In this document: in pieces, positions 26,692 to 33,499 of the stretch
How positions within the stretch are numbered: position 1 is the first letter of the stretch
How the letters are laid out: each line of letters starts with the position of its first letter
Origin: Rhodoligotrophos appendicifer
GTDB lineage: Bacteria > Pseudomonadota > Alphaproteobacteria > Rhizobiales > Im1
Direction of reading: 5' to 3'
Assembly: GCF_007474605.1 (NCBI RefSeq)
Contig: NZ_VHKL01000004.1
Span: forward strand, 310,001 to 374,000
Length of the DNA: 64,000 bases
Made by a program: the position numbers and the translations under genes
Notes under the pieces: generated by a model
Told to the model about the DNA's origin: nothing
Database searches by the model: none
What the model saw: only the letters and a program-made list of their open reading frames with translations

Positions 26692-26900
26692 TCGTTAACA
26701 GTTTTGGTGCATGCGCCAGAAACTGAATTTTATGCGGTCGATCGTGAATGAATGCTGCAGAGTAAAATTGCAAGGGGAATCAAGACTTCAGGTGTGGAGG
26801 GAACAAACACAATCTGAGGTGTGTTCATCTTGGCGAGAGCCATCAACACTATGATGTTGAGGAGGCTTGAAGCTTGCCCCCTCCTCAGGTCTCCTCGCGC

Positions 26901-27680
26901 ATGAAAATCGCCAGCTTCAACGTCAATGGGATCAATGGTCGGTTGCCTGTCCTGATCCGCTGGCTGGAGGAGACGAAGGCCGATGTGGTGTGCCTTCAGG
27001 AGTTGAAGAGCGCCCATGAAAAATTTCCGCGACGCGAACTTGAAAGAGCCGGATACGGTGCGATCTGGCTCGGTCAAAAGAGTTGGAACGGGGTTGCTAT
27101 CCTGGCGCGTGGCGTTACGCCATTGGAGACCGGCAGAGGGCTTGGAGGAGCCGATGATGACCTTCAGAGCCGATATATCGAGGGCATCGTCAACGGAATC
27201 CTCATCGGCTGTCTCTATGTCCCCAATGGCAATCCCGCCCCCGGCCCCAAATTCGATTACAAACTGCGCTGGCTGCATCGCTTGACCCATCACGCCAACG
27301 AACTGCTGAGCCTGGACGTGCCGGTGATCCTGGCTGGGGACTACAACATCATCCCTTCCGACATCGATGTCTACAAACCCGAACGGTGGCGGGATGACGC
27401 TCTCTTTCGGATGGAGGTACGGAAGGCGTTTCACTCGCTGCTGGACCAAGGCTGGATCGATGCCCTGCGGGACCTCCATCCCGGTGAGCGCATCTATACA
27501 TTCTGGGACTATTTCAGAAATGCTTGGAGCCGTGACGCGGGCTTGCGCATCGACCACCTCCTGGTCAGTCCCCACCTCGCCGGCAACATTCTCGCCGCGG
27601 GCGTGGACCGACAGGTTCGAGGATGGGAAAAGGCGAGTGATCACGCACCCGTCTGGATCCAGCTCAGCGAAGCCGATTGA
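26901..27680 (+). CDS. xthA: Exodeoxyribonuclease III
   Basis: This 259-residue endonuclease/exonuclease/phosphatase-family enzyme starts at the ATG reading MKIASFNVNGIN. Metal and catalytic motifs are all visible: SFNVNGI (Asn), VVCLQELK (Glu), AGDYNIIPSDIDVY (Asp/Asn), RIDHLLVSP and the terminal SDHAPVWI (Asp/His). XthA cleaves abasic sites and degrades 3' ends in base-excision repair. An antisense open frame over the same bases is a shadow. Confidence 0.93.
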   Translation: MKIASFNVNGINGRLPVLIRWLEETKADVVCLQELKSAHEKFPRRELERAGYGAIWLGQKSWNGVAILARGVTPLETGRGLGGADDDLQSRYIEGIVNGILIGCLYVPNGNPAPGPKFDYKLRWLHRLTHHANELLSLDVPVILAGDYNIIPSDIDVYKPERWRDDALFRMEVRKAFHSLLDQGWIDALRDLHPGERIYTFWDYFRNAWSRDAGLRIDHLLVSPHLAGNILAAGVDRQVRGWEKASDHAPVWIQLSEAD

Positions 27681-28967: not shown

Positions 28968-29897
28968 CTAGGTGGATCCGGATGTTTCCGCCAACATCAC
29001 CTTCGCCAAAACGGCGAAGGCTCCATCGGGATATTGCGCCAGGTAGGCGCCGAACATCGCGGGACTACCGCTTTCCTTCACAGTGTCCCAGAAAGCCAGC
29101 TCGACGGCGACGGCATCCGTAGAGCTAATGGCCTCATCGTGCGGTTCTTCCGCGATCGCGAGCCTTGACTTCGCCAGTGCCGAAAATTCGCCTTCAGGGT
29201 ATTTTTCGAGATAGGCCTCGAATTCAGAGGGATCGGTACTTTCCTTTATCGAGTCCCAGAACGAAATCTCAAAGGCTGCATCATTGGCCGTCCGACCGTG
29301 TCCCTCGGCGGCATCCTGAGCGAGCCTGATCTCAGTTGTCGCCCCCGTGACCGGCGCATCCCGATCCGCATCGTCCAGAAGGACCCTGAAGGCCCGGATC
29401 GGCTGCTCTATGTTCTTGACCTTCTGCTCGCCCAGATCATCGAAACTGAATTGCGCATTGTGGCGAACGTGATCGCGAACGCCTCGCGAGACACAGATGC
29501 CTCCCGGCTGGGCCAGCGTTTCAAGCCGGGCGGCGACATTGACGCCGTCACCGAAAATATCGCCGTTCTTGACCATGACATCACCGACATTCAGACCGAT
29601 GCGATATCTCAGCTGACGGTGGGACGGTTCGGTGGCAAGACGATCCTCAATCGTGCCTTGAATCTTGATGGCGCAATCAAGAGCATCGATGATGCTGGTG
29701 AACTCCGCCAAAAAGCTGTCGCCCGCTGTTCCAGTGATCCGGCCATTGTGGCTCACCACCAGTTCGTCGACGATGGCCTGGTGACTGGACAGGACTTCAA
29801 GGGTTGAAACCTCGTCTTGGGACATATAGCGACTATAGCCCTCGATATCCGCCGCGAGGATGGCAACAAGCTTTCGCTCTAGGCGTGGGGCTTCCAA
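28968..29897 (-). CDS. Class III adenylate/guanylate cyclase with duplicated C-terminal motif
   Basis: Residues 8-175 are a class III nucleotidyl cyclase domain. The metal-binding aspartates are Asp17 (AADIEGYS) and Asp60 (GDSFLAEF), and the transition-state Asn120/Arg124 lie in GVNVAARLE. No sensor or membrane segment precedes it. The C terminus carries two 41-residue repeats (about 207-247 and 263-303), each of the form FWD-hydrophobic-KES..P..F.AYL..YP.G.F..LAK...LA, with about half of positions identical. Similar repeats accompany caspase-like and TPR proteins in rhizobia. Cyclic AMP synthesis is likely; the repeats are probably a binding module. Confidence 0.88.
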   Translation of the reverse strand: MEAPRLERKLVAILAADIEGYSRYMSQDEVSTLEVLSSHQAIVDELVVSHNGRITGTAGDSFLAEFTSIIDALDCAIKIQGTIEDRLATEPSHRQLRYRIGLNVGDVMVKNGDIFGDGVNVAARLETLAQPGGICVSRGVRDHVRHNAQFSFDDLGEQKVKNIEQPIRAFRVLLDDADRDAPVTGATTEIRLAQDAAEGHGRTANDAAFEISFWDSIKESTDPSEFEAYLEKYPEGEFSALAKSRLAIAEEPHDEAISSTDAVAVELAFWDTVKESGSPAMFGAYLAQYPDGAFAVLAKVMLAETSGST

Positions 29898-30034
29898 CGA
29901 TGTTCTCCGAGTGAAATTAGGGCTTCTCAGGCGATAAGCGCCCTGGCCGCATTTGGTTGCCGGAGTCCCGCCCCTGCAGGTGGAAACGCTCTAACCGTGC
30001 GCTAAATACCATATGTTCCTGGCTTCTCATCAAA

Positions 30035-30070
30035 GGAAAAGGCCCCGACGCAGTGCGCGGGGCCTTTCCT
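30035..30070 (-). terminator. Rho-independent terminator of the membrane-protein operon
   Basis: The stem AAGGCCCC / GGGGCCTT (30039-30046 and 30059-30066) with a 12-base loop is followed on the minus strand by TTTTCCTTT. It lies about 20 bases after the stop of the last gene of the four-gene operon that begins at 33289. Confidence 0.8.
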
Positions 30071-30087: not shown

Positions 30088-31020
30088 TTATGTGGAGTGC
30101 TTCGCGCCCAACTCGGCGAATTCTTCACGCGCCGTGGCGGAAACATGGGCCAGCTTTTCCCTAAATCGCTTAATTGCCGCCAGCGCTGCTTCCTCGCTTA
30201 GACCTTGAGCCTGCGCTTCCCGCTTTAGATCCTCAAACGTGTCATGGGCAAGGTCCCTGGCGCTTCGCAGCTGTTCGGAGACCACACTCTGCGCTTGCGC
30301 CTTCATGGCGTCGCTTTCCTCACCCAACAGGCGGTTCTCCGTTTCCGTCGTGGGCAAGGCAGCAGCAATTCCCGCCCCGATCGCCAATCCGGCCGCGCCG
30401 ACGAGCAGTGGGTAACGCTCTAATGCATCCTTCAAGTCGTCCTGGCCCTCGGAGAGCATGTGAAGAACGCTCGTCGCCGCATTCTGGGATCGTTCACCGA
30501 TCGAATTTGCTGCGCTCGAAGCCATGGACGAGGTGCGGTGGGACATGGACGCCAGTCCCTCAGCGGCAGCGGAGAGCGTGCCCGAGACGGATGAATAGCC
30601 GCTCTCAGCAGCTTCACTCACCTTGTCCCCGAGGTAGCCTGCGCCTTCCCCAATGTTCGACCCGACAGCGCTCAACCCATCTCGAACACTCGCCGCGCCC
30701 GATGATACCGCCGATCCCACCCCGCTCATCGCTCCTCTGGAGGATCCTGAGGGCGAATAGTGGTGAACTCGTTCCTCCTCGATATGGAATCCGCGCTCCC
30801 TCTTGTGTTTCTCGCCACGGTGCTTGCGCGACTTTGAGCCTCCCAGAAGGGAAACCTTGGACCCTCCTGCAAATAGCCAAACGGCGCCCATGGCAATCAA
30901 TGCGGCAGATACGGGATTGTCCCGAACTGCTGCGACCAGAGTGTCCTGGAAACTGGCAGATGAGGTGGGCGTCCGGGGCGCCGGGAGGTAACGATCTTTG
31001 TGGCTATGTAACTCTGTCAT
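30088..31020 (-). CDS. Ser/Gly/Ala-rich membrane-associated stress-type protein
   Basis: The 310-residue protein resembles the nutrient-deprivation-induced or DUF3618-associated membrane proteins of rhizobia. Two hydrophobic stretches are seen: NPVSAALIAMGAVWLFAGG near residue 36 and LLVGAAGLAIGAGIAAALP near residue 210. Between them are amphipathic Ser/Ala/Gly repeats (SAVGSNIGEGAGYLGDKVSEAAES...). A charged helical C-terminal region with KREAQAQGLSEEAALAAIKRFREK follows. The start overlaps the holin-like gene by ATGA. It is the last gene of the operon; a strong terminator follows. Role is unknown, perhaps envelope protection under stress. Confidence 0.65.
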   Translation of the reverse strand: MTELHSHKDRYLPAPRTPTSSASFQDTLVAAVRDNPVSAALIAMGAVWLFAGGSKVSLLGGSKSRKHRGEKHKRERGFHIEEERVHHYSPSGSSRGAMSGVGSAVSSGAASVRDGLSAVGSNIGEGAGYLGDKVSEAAESGYSSVSGTLSAAAEGLASMSHRTSSMASSAANSIGERSQNAATSVLHMLSEGQDDLKDALERYPLLVGAAGLAIGAGIAAALPTTETENRLLGEESDAMKAQAQSVVSEQLRSARDLAHDTFEDLKREAQAQGLSEEAALAAIKRFREKLAHVSATAREEFAELGAKHST

Positions 31021-31412
31021 CTCACCTGTTCCTTTGCTGCAACCGCATCAAGGTGAAGTTGTTCCAAGGTCCGCTTCGGTACGAAGCTCGCCGCCTTAAT
31101 CCGATTGAGTCCGATCCACGCCAATATCGCGCTTGCAGCCATGCCTATGACCGTCGCGATCAGATTTCCCAACCACTCGTCAAGGCCAGCCTCCACTAGG
31201 GCCGCGCTGATCGTAAGAAGCAGCATGACCAAGGCAGGGATCGCAAGAACGGCGGCGGCAGCCAGGAAGCCAACGGCATTGGCTGCCTTGCTGACCTGCA
31301 GAAGCATTTCGGTTCGAGCGAGCTGGATTTCACTGCGAACAAGGTCGCCCAGCTGGCTAAAAGTATCGGAAAGAAGGTCTGTAAAAGACCGATTTTCAAC
31401 AGGCATAGCCAT
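31017..31412 (-). CDS. Phage-holin-like membrane protein (holin superfamily 3.6 type)
   Basis: The 131-residue protein has an amphipathic N-terminal helix (LLSDTFSQLGDLVRSEIQLARTEM) and two membrane helices (AVGFLAAAAVLAIPALVMLLLTIS, then LIATVIGMAASAILAWIGL). It ends with a charged tail KRTLEQLHLDAVAAKEQVR. This is the architecture of the PF07332-like family, which in rhizobia is chromosomal and not linked to lysis. The ATG at 31412 has AAGGAA upstream. It overlaps the next gene by ATGA. No phage genes are near, so lysis is unlikely. Confidence 0.75.
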   Translation of the reverse strand: MAMPVENRSFTDLLSDTFSQLGDLVRSEIQLARTEMLLQVSKAANAVGFLAAAAVLAIPALVMLLLTISAALVEAGLDEWLGNLIATVIGMAASAILAWIGLNRIKAASFVPKRTLEQLHLDAVAAKEQVR

Positions 31413-31457
31413 TGCGCATTTCCTTGAATCCAATTCCTGTCGTGGCCACGCAAAAAC

Positions 31458-32093
31458 TTACGAGGGCATGTTGGTACGACTTGGCGACGCTGGTTGCGAA
31501 CCGGGCATCGAGCTCATCCGCGTCTCTTGACCATCATAGGGACGAGCGGTGTCTTCCCGATGCCGCGGCGAGGGTGCCGACGTCTTCAAGAAGCGGACGA
31601 GGGCGAACCCGGACAGCGCCGCGATGCCCAGGAATGCCGTGGGCTGGCGCCGTGCGAAATCCTGCACCGTCTCAAACAAATCGCCGATGTTGCGATCGGC
31701 AACAGCATCCGAGACACTCTCGATGTGGTCAGCCGCGTATCTCACATAATGCGCTGCCTGCGGGATCTCGCTTTCCAGCTCTTTGGCAGCCCGGCGAACA
31801 GCTTCGGCCACGCCTCTTACCCGCTCGGCCCCAAGATTCTTTCCTTCTTCAACCGTGTTGGTTAGCTGCTCCTGGACGTTTGACATCATCTGTTTCGCCC
31901 CGGCACCGAGGCTGCCGGCCTGGGCTTTTAAATCTTCTCCCATTCCCGCGAGATCATTCTTCACATCCGAGGCCGCCTTGCGGGTCTCATTCTTCACGTC
32001 CGACGCAGCCTTGAGGGTCTCATCCTTCATGGAGGCCTCATTGGCCCCCGTCGAGGCAATCTTGCCTCCCGACTGGTTTGGCAAACTATTCAT
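31458..32093 (-). CDS. LEA-like/amphipathic helical protein with 11-residue repeats and one membrane anchor
   Basis: In 211 residues the N-terminal half is a charged, Ala-rich amphipathic helix including tandem 11-residue units KAASDVKNETR / KAASDVKNDLA, the periodicity typical of group 3 LEA proteins. A long helical region (RVRGVAEAVRRAAKELESEIPQ) follows. One hydrophobic segment (PTAFLGIAALSGFALVRFL) lies near residue 165, then a Pro/Ser-rich tail. It overlaps the DUF3618 gene stop by TCAT (ATGA on the coding strand). I infer a membrane-tethered desiccation or envelope-stress role from composition only. Confidence 0.62.
   Translation of the reverse strand: MNSLPNQSGGKIASTGANEASMKDETLKAASDVKNETRKAASDVKNDLAGMGEDLKAQAGSLGAGAKQMMSNVQEQLTNTVEEGKNLGAERVRGVAEAVRRAAKELESEIPQAAHYVRYAADHIESVSDAVADRNIGDLFETVQDFARRQPTAFLGIAALSGFALVRFLKTSAPSPRHREDTARPYDGQETRMSSMPGSQPASPSRTNMPS
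31954..32019 (-). repeat. Tandem 33-base direct repeat inside the LEA-like gene
   Basis: Two adjoining 33-base units (31954-31986 and 31987-32019) both begin TCATTCTTCAC and differ at four positions. They encode the two 11-residue KAASDVKN units. A degraded third start (TCATCCTTCAT) follows at 32020. Confidence 0.85.
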
Positions 32094-33289
32094 GAAAGCT
32101 CTCCACTTTTCCGGTTCACCTGGCCTTGGCCCTTCGAGGTCGTGCGAGGACGATCCTCTTCATCGTTTGGCTCCATCCGCTCGCCCACCTTCGCGGCCAC
32201 GGCTTTAACCTTGTCGCCCACCTTCCGGGCTTCAGCACGCGCATCATCGAGGGTGAGCCCTTCCTCCTCTGCAACGTCGAGCGTCGCATCCAGGATCCGG
32301 CCGCCGGCATCCACTGCGTCCTGGTACGTGTCGGAGGCCATATTGGTTACGGTCCGCTTCACCTTACGGCTCGCGTCCCCCAATGCCCGGGACTCGGCCC
32401 TGGTGACCGGCAGAGAGGCCGCGAGGATCGCGCCGACCGCTAAACCAAGTGTGCCAACCAGCAGCGGATGTCTTTCAAACGCGTCGCCAAGATTTGCACT
32501 TGCACGTCGCCCCGCCATCGCGACGCGTTCACGGCCATAAGCCAGCTGTTCAGCGGTCTGATGAGCCAGCGAGGAGGCCATGTCGGAAGTTTGATGAGCG
32601 AGCGAAGACGCCATGTCGGACGCCGCAGCCACGGCTGAGGACGCTCTATCCGCCGCGGATGAAGCCACACCTTTCGCAGCGTCGATCGAGCTCTGAGCCA
32701 GATCGGTTGCGTCGTCATAGGCGTGCCAAACGGCCGAAGTTCCTGTCTCTACCCGTGCAGCGACCTCGGAACGGACCGTTTCGGCCGCGCCCGCGATCCG
32801 TTGACCGGCCATGTCGGCCGCACCGGAAATCTTATCTTGCGCCGCCTCTGAGGCGTCCGACAGGCCGGATGTTATCCGCTTTTTGGCCTGATCAAGGCCC
32901 GTCCACGACCCCGTCGCTCCGGGTTGCCGCGAGCCGCTGCCCGCGCCGGCCAAGGCAATGCCGGCCCCCATCAGCAGAATTGGAATGGGTATGCTCTGCA
33001 GCAGGCGGAACGCCGGGTAGGCCAATCCGGCGCCGACAGCCAGGGCCTGAAGCGGGTTCTCCCGCGCCGCGCGCTCAATGTCCGTCAGCGCCTGCTGGCT
33101 GCGCCGGCTCACATATTCCTTCACGTCCTCCTTGATGACCTCAGGAGAAACACGGTGCTGCAAGTCGGTGGCGGTTTCGGTCACGCGGCTGCGAAGTTCA
33201 TCAACAGTTTTCGCAAGCTCCACTCGCCTATGCTCAGCCTGGCGCTCTAGGTCGTCCAAGGAAGCTTCTTGTTGGTTCATCGTCGTCAT
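32090..33289 (-). CDS. DUF3618-domain membrane protein
   Basis: From the ATG with GGGAG and seven-base spacing the protein has 399 residues. The N-terminal DUF3618 pattern is clear: LDDLERQAEHRRVELAKTVDELRSRVTETATDL followed by helical linker and AARENPLQALAVGAGLAYPAF. A second hydrophobic stretch (IPIPILLMGAGIALAGAG) follows. The middle is a long Ala/Ser amphipathic region with a perfect tandem SDMASSLAHQT. Another hydrophobic glycine-rich helix near residue 285 (LLVGTLGLAVGAILAASLP) nearly copies the segment in the fourth operon gene. It heads the operon of four membrane-related genes. Confidence 0.78.
   Translation of the reverse strand: MTTMNQQEASLDDLERQAEHRRVELAKTVDELRSRVTETATDLQHRVSPEVIKEDVKEYVSRRSQQALTDIERAARENPLQALAVGAGLAYPAFRLLQSIPIPILLMGAGIALAGAGSGSRQPGATGSWTGLDQAKKRITSGLSDASEAAQDKISGAADMAGQRIAGAAETVRSEVAARVETGTSAVWHAYDDATDLAQSSIDAAKGVASSAADRASSAVAAASDMASSLAHQTSDMASSLAHQTAEQLAYGRERVAMAGRRASANLGDAFERHPLLVGTLGLAVGAILAASLPVTRAESRALGDASRKVKRTVTNMASDTYQDAVDAGGRILDATLDVAEEEGLTLDDARAEARKVGDKVKAVAAKVGERMEPNDEEDRPRTTSKGQGQVNRKSGELS
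32556..32621 (-). repeat. Tandem 33-base direct repeat inside the DUF3618 gene
   Basis: Two adjoining 33-base units (32556-32588 and 32589-32621) encode SDMASSLAHQT twice. The nucleotide copies have diverged at a few, mostly synonymous, positions, so the peptide repeat is conserved while the DNA is not identical. Confidence 0.85.
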
Positions 33290-33499
33290 TAATAGTCTCC
33301 CAGGCAGGAGGAATTCTGCGCAAACAATGCCTCGGCTTATTAAGCGGTAAGCGCCCTTCTTTGTTCCCTTGGACTTGCGAAGTCGCCAATCTTTCCCTGA
33401 TGGTCGGGTGATTGAGGCCCTGGACCGTGCCGGCGTGCCAAAAGGGGGACCGGAGGACGTCCGACCGACTGAAGGTTCTATCGACAATCGGTTCGGCCC

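Follow-up and report, generated by a model that had tools for sequence, protein, structure and literature searches.

The 64,000-nucleotide (nt) stretch of the Rhodoligotrophos appendicifer genome analysed here (assembly GCF_007474605.1, contig NZ_VHKL01000004.1, positions 310,001-374,000; hereafter the window, in whose positions all coordinates are given) encodes on its minus strand a four-gene operon, g1 to g4 in order of transcription. On balance, we consider it probable that this operon is an effector module of the general stress response (the PhyR-NepR-EcfG system), whose anchored amphipathic 3-11 helices would coat and stabilise the inner membrane. The computed observations that bear on this proposal are the operon anatomy, the co-conservation of its gene families, an 11/3 periodicity in its proteins, the grouping of the four-gene operons in one clade, an EcfG-type site upstream of g1, and the presence of PhyR, NepR and EcfG genes in the same genome.

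Composition of the operon

An earlier note on this DNA had described four genes that overlap by ATGA at two of their three junctions and end at a strong terminator, and each of these points stands. In the open reading frame (ORF) list of the window, the four minus-strand frames (Table 1) show ATGA overlaps at g1/g2 (32090-32093) and g3/g4 (31017-31020), with a gap of 45 nt between g2 and g3, and the hairpin following g4 has a folding energy of -27 kcal/mol (z -4.76), a stability equalled in 0/200 shuffles. The hairpin was not called by the consensus terminator scanner, probably because of the scanner's loop or tail limits, and a promoter scan of the operon region found no sigma-70 promoters.

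The g3 protein belongs to PF07332 (Phage_holin_3_6/Holin-X; E 3.6e-22, 79 bits against a cut-off of 28.4), the Pfam family that also includes Escherichia coli YqjE (75.8 bits). The DUF3618-like start of g1 falls slightly below the Pfam cut-off (E 6.3e-5, 23.6 bits against 24.9) and scores 34 bits with a profile built from its own relatives; for g2 and g4 no curated Pfam family rose above its cut-off. Every one of the four proteins contains one or two apparently membrane-spanning segments (19-residue windows with mean hydropathy of 1.61-2.66), those of g1 lying at residues 96-114 and 277-295. The earlier description of the products as amphipathic repeat membrane proteins does not extend to g3, which is a PF07332 protein with two helices. 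No solved structure matched g1 at E up to 0.01, and the only hits of g3 were at E 0.26 and 0.88.

The hydrophobic segment that the note had seen in both the first and last genes (PLLVG..GLA.GA.LA/AALP) was recovered as a glycine-zipper segment with the consensus QPLxxGAxGLAxGAxxGAxLPxTxxEdxxxG, because of which g1 and g4 retrieve each other in searches. Judging from their sequences, g1 and g4 are paralogues, with g4 being devoid of DUF3618.

A three-gene core and its four-gene derivative

Relatives of the operon products were sought in an order-level sample of 297 genomes, in which g4 is matched in 42, g2 in 49, DUF3618 in 42 and PF07332 in 148, many of the PF07332 matches being weak; as a lone query against the genome collection, g4 retrieved no relative. 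For the analysis of linkage we used 61 PF07332 rows scoring 40 bits or more from among the matches listed, every row of g2 (58) and of DUF3618 (47), and the 45 zipper loci obtained after merging multiple rows of one locus. Within 3.5 kilobases of a PF07332 gene that reaches 40 bits lie all 45 zipper loci, 45/47 DUF3618 matches and 54/58 g2 matches; conversely, of the 56 PF07332 genes that reach 50 bits, 52 are near g2, and 47/56 are near g2 plus a DUF3618 or zipper match. The genes are therefore a co-conserved set, as had been surmised. The g2 profile further finds relatives in 28/367 genomes of a class-level sample and 54/378 of a phylum-level sample; in the 40 regions examined from these (28 from other alphaproteobacterial orders and 12 from outside the class, additional alphaproteobacterial matches being left out), PF07332 is linked in 25/28 and 11/12, respectively.

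The window operon shows the arrangement that marks this operon family, its g2, PF07332 and DUF3618/zipper genes adjoining on one strand in profile searches. The set whose distribution the earlier note had wished to see traced does travel together, but the conserved unit comprises three genes, not four: the four-gene order (DUF3618/zipper - g2 - PF07332 - zipper) occurs in 6 of 45 operons. These 45, from 15 families, come from genomes matching g4 or DUF3618, so that the sample is conditioned on the presence of the module; in one operon (L084), which begins at a contig edge, the real g2 is probably not represented. The three-gene core is evident in named rhizobia, where genes annotated as 'nutrient deprivation-induced protein', 'phage holin family protein' and 'DUF3618 domain-containing protein' adjoin in that order. 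The trio of Sinorhizobium meliloti pSymB, situated near 232.5-235.5 kb of NC_003078, and that of Rhizobium sp. C104 have the same three families, order and upstream EcfG-type site as the window operon, whereas the window has the DUF3618/zipper gene doubled, with the DUF3618 copy first and the copy without DUF3618 last. The window genome also holds a three-gene operon on another contig (L011, G000:C9:253230-255240), which likewise has g2, PF07332 and a DUF3618/zipper gene plus the motif, and differs in its gene number and in having a PF07332 protein that is not part of the four-gene clade. In the two congeners of the window organism, only the three-gene form turned up in the searches.

The six four-gene operons are that of the window, a pair from family f22, namely Aestuariivirga litoralis (L094, on the same contig as L052) and an uncultured alphaproteobacterium (L095), and three of family f35. 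The f22 pair has the same arrangement and clade as the window operon, differing by the lack of tandem 11-mers at the same places and an identity of 28-42 percent. The PF07332 proteins of all six form one group (support 99/97, recovered in 98 percent of bootstrap trees), indicating that the four-gene form probably arose once. Their twelve zipper segments also cluster (91/83), under the tool's star threshold; in the zipper tree the six first copies group together (97/83), as do five of the six last copies (98/89), with the last copy of the window, g4, sitting weakly beside the first copies (81/47). The simplest history read from these trees, in which the window g4 is not firmly placed, is probably a single duplication of the DUF3618/zipper gene of a three-gene g2 - g3 - DUF3618/zipper operon, after which the first copy would have kept DUF3618 and the last lost it. 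The earlier suggestion of a module built by duplication agrees with both this clade and the g1/g4 paralogy.

In six relatives (L074, L075, L080, L081, L082 and L087) separate reading frames encode the DUF3618/hydrophobic portion and the amphipathic/zipper portion, pointing to a shuffling of modules among genes.

Amphipathic helices with an 11/3 periodicity

Fourier analysis of hydrophobicity places the peaks of the amphipathic regions at 3.66 (g1), 3.65 (g2) and 3.65 (g4) residues/turn, near 11/3, with 0/500 shuffles as strong in each case. The same holds across the family: all 200 shuffles are surpassed by 39/45 g2 and 45/51 zipper proteins, whose peak falls inside 3.60-3.70 in 30/45 and 46/51 cases. 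Of 120 control frames, 13 peak in that range and 6 surpass all of 100 shuffles. The 11-residue period proposed in the note is hence not only present in these proteins but family-wide.

The two 33-base tandem duplications were also found as claimed, one in g1 and one in g2. In the g1 copies all 5 base differences are at third codon positions and 11/11 residues are identical, suggesting that the repeated peptide was retained while the DNA drifted; the g2 copies agree in 10/11 residues. Either repeat was equalled in 0/200 residue shuffles, and g3 and g4 have no 11-mer repeat beyond chance (43/200 and 98/200 shuffles as good, respectively); Tandem Repeats Finder reports the g2 array only. In the two nearest relatives the tandem 11-mers are absent at the same places, and the g2 alignment shows a gap there. 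Thus, the tandem copies are local to this lineage and the amphipathic periodicity is a property of the family.

Such 11-mer repeats are described as forming 3-11 helices, which in apolipoproteins and alpha-synuclein need contact with lipid in order to fold (PMC5889406). The operon proteins have weak Pfam matches to apolipoprotein-type models, which mirror the 11/3 property and are no evidence of descent. Likewise, perilipin 4, alpha-synuclein and the apolipoproteins have the 11-residue amphipathic period in common with the window proteins, and no homology is claimed. To our knowledge, none of these proteins has a transmembrane anchor of the kind found in the window operon.

An EcfG-type promoter-like site

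A GGAAC-N19-TT site precedes g1 (Table 1). According to PMC3892343, EcfG occurs in Alphaproteobacteria only and has the motif GGAAC-N16-CGTT in Rhizobium etli; an EcfG-type motif of Sphingomonas is given as GGAAC-N17-20-GTT (PMC6599016). The window site carries CGCTT in place of CGTT and so meets only a relaxed form of the GGAAC-N16/17-CGTT-type promoter. A GGAAC-N18/19-TT site is present within 400 nt upstream of the conserved domain of the first gene in 43/45 operons and 14/15 families. Its spacing is sharply distributed, with counts of 32 at 18 and 22 at 19, 0-2 at 12-17 and 20-21, and 1-8 at 22-25. Among 29 permuted -35 boxes used as a control the mean was 1.9 and the maximum 14, the top two (14 and 8) overlapping the true box; the reverse strand gave 6/45, the region upstream of g3 1/45, and the background elsewhere in the loci was 0.08 per 700 nt. 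The site lies 74 nt upstream in S. meliloti pSymB, 69 nt in Rhizobium sp. C104 and 53 nt in Mesorhizobium, and the window genome has phyR, nepR and an extracytoplasmic-function (ECF) sigma factor gene (ecfG) side by side. S. meliloti ndiA is presumably a g2 homologue, as its product name, common to both, suggests. The ndiA gene is among those called RpoE2-dependent (PMC2651895).

Beyond the order, the site is found upstream of 18/28 loci of other alphaproteobacterial orders and 1/12 outside the class, where 11/12 loci retain the linked genes although the site is so rarely seen. Eleven of the loci outside Alphaproteobacteria (L131-L141) show linked g2 - PF07332 - zipper genes, with an EcfG-type site in 1/11. 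Taking the sites and the regulator genes together, we strongly infer that the operon is under general-stress (EcfG) control, and we place more confidence in this regulation than in the function. Among the titles and abstract openings listed by the literature searches, none describes the gene set as an EcfG module, a class-wide EcfG-type site upstream of it or a family-wide 3-11 period.

Within the operon itself, a GGAAC-N18-TT sequence at 31041-31065 (minus strand) falls within the last part of g3, some 21 nt ahead of the g4 start, and may be either an internal promoter or a chance occurrence.

Proposed function and points that weigh against it

We propose that under stress EcfG would transcribe the four genes from the GGAAC-N19-TT site and that short glycine-rich hydrophobic segments would hold g1, g2 and g4 in the inner membrane, with their long 3-11 amphipathic helices lying along the membrane surface. 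The two-helix g3 would probably be the integral partner that gathers the other three in a complex, and the four proteins might jointly coat the membrane and stiffen or stabilise it in starvation and other stress. The earlier note had envisaged an envelope or desiccation protection module. Its first half accords with the hydrophobic segments of all four proteins, which point to an envelope-located set; desiccation as such is less well served, a general-stress promoter fitting better than a desiccation-specific role, even if the conditions that induce the operon could include drying and osmotic stress.

Several observations count against this proposal. The window contains 12 copies of GGAAC-N18/19-TT against 9.3 expected, so the sequence by itself is not rare; 10/28 loci from other alphaproteobacterial orders are without the site, no clear replacement motif emerged upstream of the operons outside the class (best 5/11, shuffled maximum 3-4), and operons that share ancestry do not count as independent samples. 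As for the periodicity, 6/45 g2 and 6/51 zipper proteins fail to top all shuffles, 15/45 g2 peaks lie outside 3.60-3.70, and the control frames include non-genes. Structure prediction, which the earlier note had put forward as a check, did return helices for g4 and g2, and helices only, at mean pLDDT (predicted local distance difference test) values of 48.0 and 47.5 in the AlphaFold models; at such confidence, below 50, they lend the membrane topology no structural support. The EcfG dependence, the topology and the g3 complex are readings of the sequence, and the role as a coat or stabiliser is a hypothesis.

Related systems and alternative readings

The E. coli yqjCDEK operon likewise sets a tail-anchored glycine-zipper protein beside a PF07332 protein under the control of a stress sigma factor, and differs in that this is RpoS, not EcfG, and that the DUF883 N-terminal domain and YqjK were not found in the window operon. 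YqjD is described as tail-anchored and ribosome-binding, YqjE as being without known function, and yqjC/D/E as RpoS-induced (PMC10746276). The operon proteins could be YqjD-like ribosome tethers, tail-anchored proteins that capture ribosomes in stationary phase and either keep them in reserve or shut them down at the membrane. We regard this as rather unlikely, even though the gene pairing is that of yqjD-yqjE and hhalign matches the zipper profile to the C-terminal anchor of YqjD/ElaB/YgaM at 90 percent over 39 columns, in a pairwise comparison only; against the same anchor g2 reaches 42.6 percent and the controls, namely g3 (1.1), the N-terminal segment and DUF3618, 1.1-4.4 percent. However, the DUF883 N-terminal domain (PF05957) is absent from the Pfam matches of g1-g4, no DUF883_C match exceeds its threshold genome-wide (g1 scores 12.8 bits against a cut-off of 27), and YqjD has 101 residues as opposed to 211-399 in g1, g2 and g4. 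By analogy, the operon may work like yqjDE, as a stress-sigma-driven combination of an anchored helix and a PF07332 protein, and we do not class it as a DUF883 member. Another comparable system, Pseudomonas aeruginosa PA3040-3042, is described as an envelope-stress (AlgU) operon with a DUF883 protein and a YqjE-like protein; it differs in its AlgU control, in a PA3042 without a recognised domain and in that the passages cited report no DUF3618 or g2, and its biofilm and tobramycin phenotypes are traced to PA3042 in one isolate (PMC11302039).

The note had further likened the 11-residue units to group 3 late embryogenesis abundant (LEA) proteins. The 11-residue period, the tandem 11-mers and the weak apolipophorin-type matches would suit such desiccation protectants, but LEA_4 did not come up for any of g1-g4 in the Pfam search at E up to 1, and every protein has strongly hydrophobic segments and is thus not soluble or hydrophilic in the manner of LEA proteins. 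Further, the 11/3 period is described as typical of membrane-binding helices (PMC5889406), and the tandem units are not conserved in the nearest relatives. The missing LEA_4 match and the one or two transmembrane segments in each protein together make soluble desiccation protectants unlikely; we therefore reject the LEA classification and keep the LEA-like function only as a very improbable rival.

That g3 might instead permeabilise the membrane and slow growth or lyse the cell, with the other proteins restraining it as in a holin/toxin module, appears similarly far-fetched: the holin name of PF07332 and the growth arrest described on YqjE overproduction (PMC11302039, PMC10746276) speak for it, but a PHROG search at E up to 0.01 gave nothing for g3, no obvious lysis gene adjoins it among the ORFs (judged by eye), the gene set is conserved together with a host stress promoter, and PA3041 overproduction is described as not inhibiting growth (PMC11302039). 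A phage origin was also rejected, g2 having only a weak tape-measure match in PHROG.

Features of the window

Table 1. Genes and sequence features of the operon and its flanks (window positions).
Feature	Position	Strand	Description	Basis
g1	32090..33289	-	399 aa; DUF3618-like N-terminus, hydrophobic segment, amphipathic 3-11 region, glycine-zipper segment with LPxTxxE, C-terminal amphipathic helix	ORF list
g2	31458..32093	-	211 aa; amphipathic 3-11 helix protein, conserved C-terminal anchor DFARRQPTAFLG...GFALVRFLK	ORF list
g3	31017..31412	-	131 aa counted from ATG; two hydrophobic (transmembrane) segments; PF07332	ORF list
g4	30088..31020	-	310 aa; N-terminal hydrophobic segment, amphipathic 3-11 region, glycine-zipper segment, C-terminal helix	ORF list
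EcfG/RpoE2-type promoter-like site	33342..33367	-	GGAAC-N19-TT, GGAACAAAGAAGGGCGCTTACCGCTT on coding strand; begins 78 nt upstream of g1 ATG	
DUF3618-like segment of g1	33182..33262	-	residues 10-36	Pfam
Tandem duplication in g1	32555..32620	-	33 bases, SDMASSLAHQT x2 (residues 224-245); 28/33 bases identical	
Glycine-zipper segment of g1	32375..32476	-	ERHPLLVGTLGLAVGAILAASLPVTRAESRALG	profile/alignment
Tandem duplication in g2	31947..32012	-	33 bases, KAASDVKNETR/KAASDVKNDLA (residues 28-49); 24/33 bases identical	
C-terminal membrane anchor of g2	31587..31658	-	residues 146-169	hydropathy
N-terminal hydrophobic segment of g4	30844..30918	-	NPVSAALIAMGAVWLFAGG region	hydropathy
Glycine-zipper segment of g4	30319..30420	-	ERYPLLVGAAGLAIGAGIAAALPTTETENRLLG	profile/alignment
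Terminator hairpin	30034..30070 (approximate)	-	GGAAAGGCCCCG...CGGGGCCUUUUCC; 3' of g4	folding vs shuffles

Outside the operon, a GGAAC-N19-TT sequence at 26800-26825 (plus strand) stands about 50-75 nt before an ORF at 26874-27680 that resembles exonuclease III (named by eye), suggesting that a DNA-repair gene may also be EcfG-controlled. A class III adenylate/guanylate cyclase gene (PF00211) at 28968-29897 (minus strand) encodes a protein whose C-terminal half has two similar repeats, SFWDSIKESTDPSEFEAYLEKYPEGEFSALAK and AFWDTVKESGSPAMFGAYLAQYPDGAFAVLAK.

Implications

The three-gene core of this operon is common and already named in annotation, and the four-gene form is a rarer variant. On a wider view, offered tentatively, the family might be a bacterial stress-induced, membrane-anchored counterpart of the synuclein/perilipin-type coats, made of zipper-anchored 3-11 helices and a PF07332 scaffold, which across Pseudomonadota would be wired to the general stress sigma factor of each lineage (EcfG here, RpoS in yqjDE and AlgU in PA3040-3042), with the four-gene form as a specialised second copy. 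The presence of two operons in one genome permits the three- and four-gene forms to be compared. The conserved promoter-like site and the 11/3 helix period suggest a concrete job, the coating of the membrane surface under stress, and thereby a candidate role for genes labelled 'hypothetical', 'holin' or 'nutrient deprivation-induced'.

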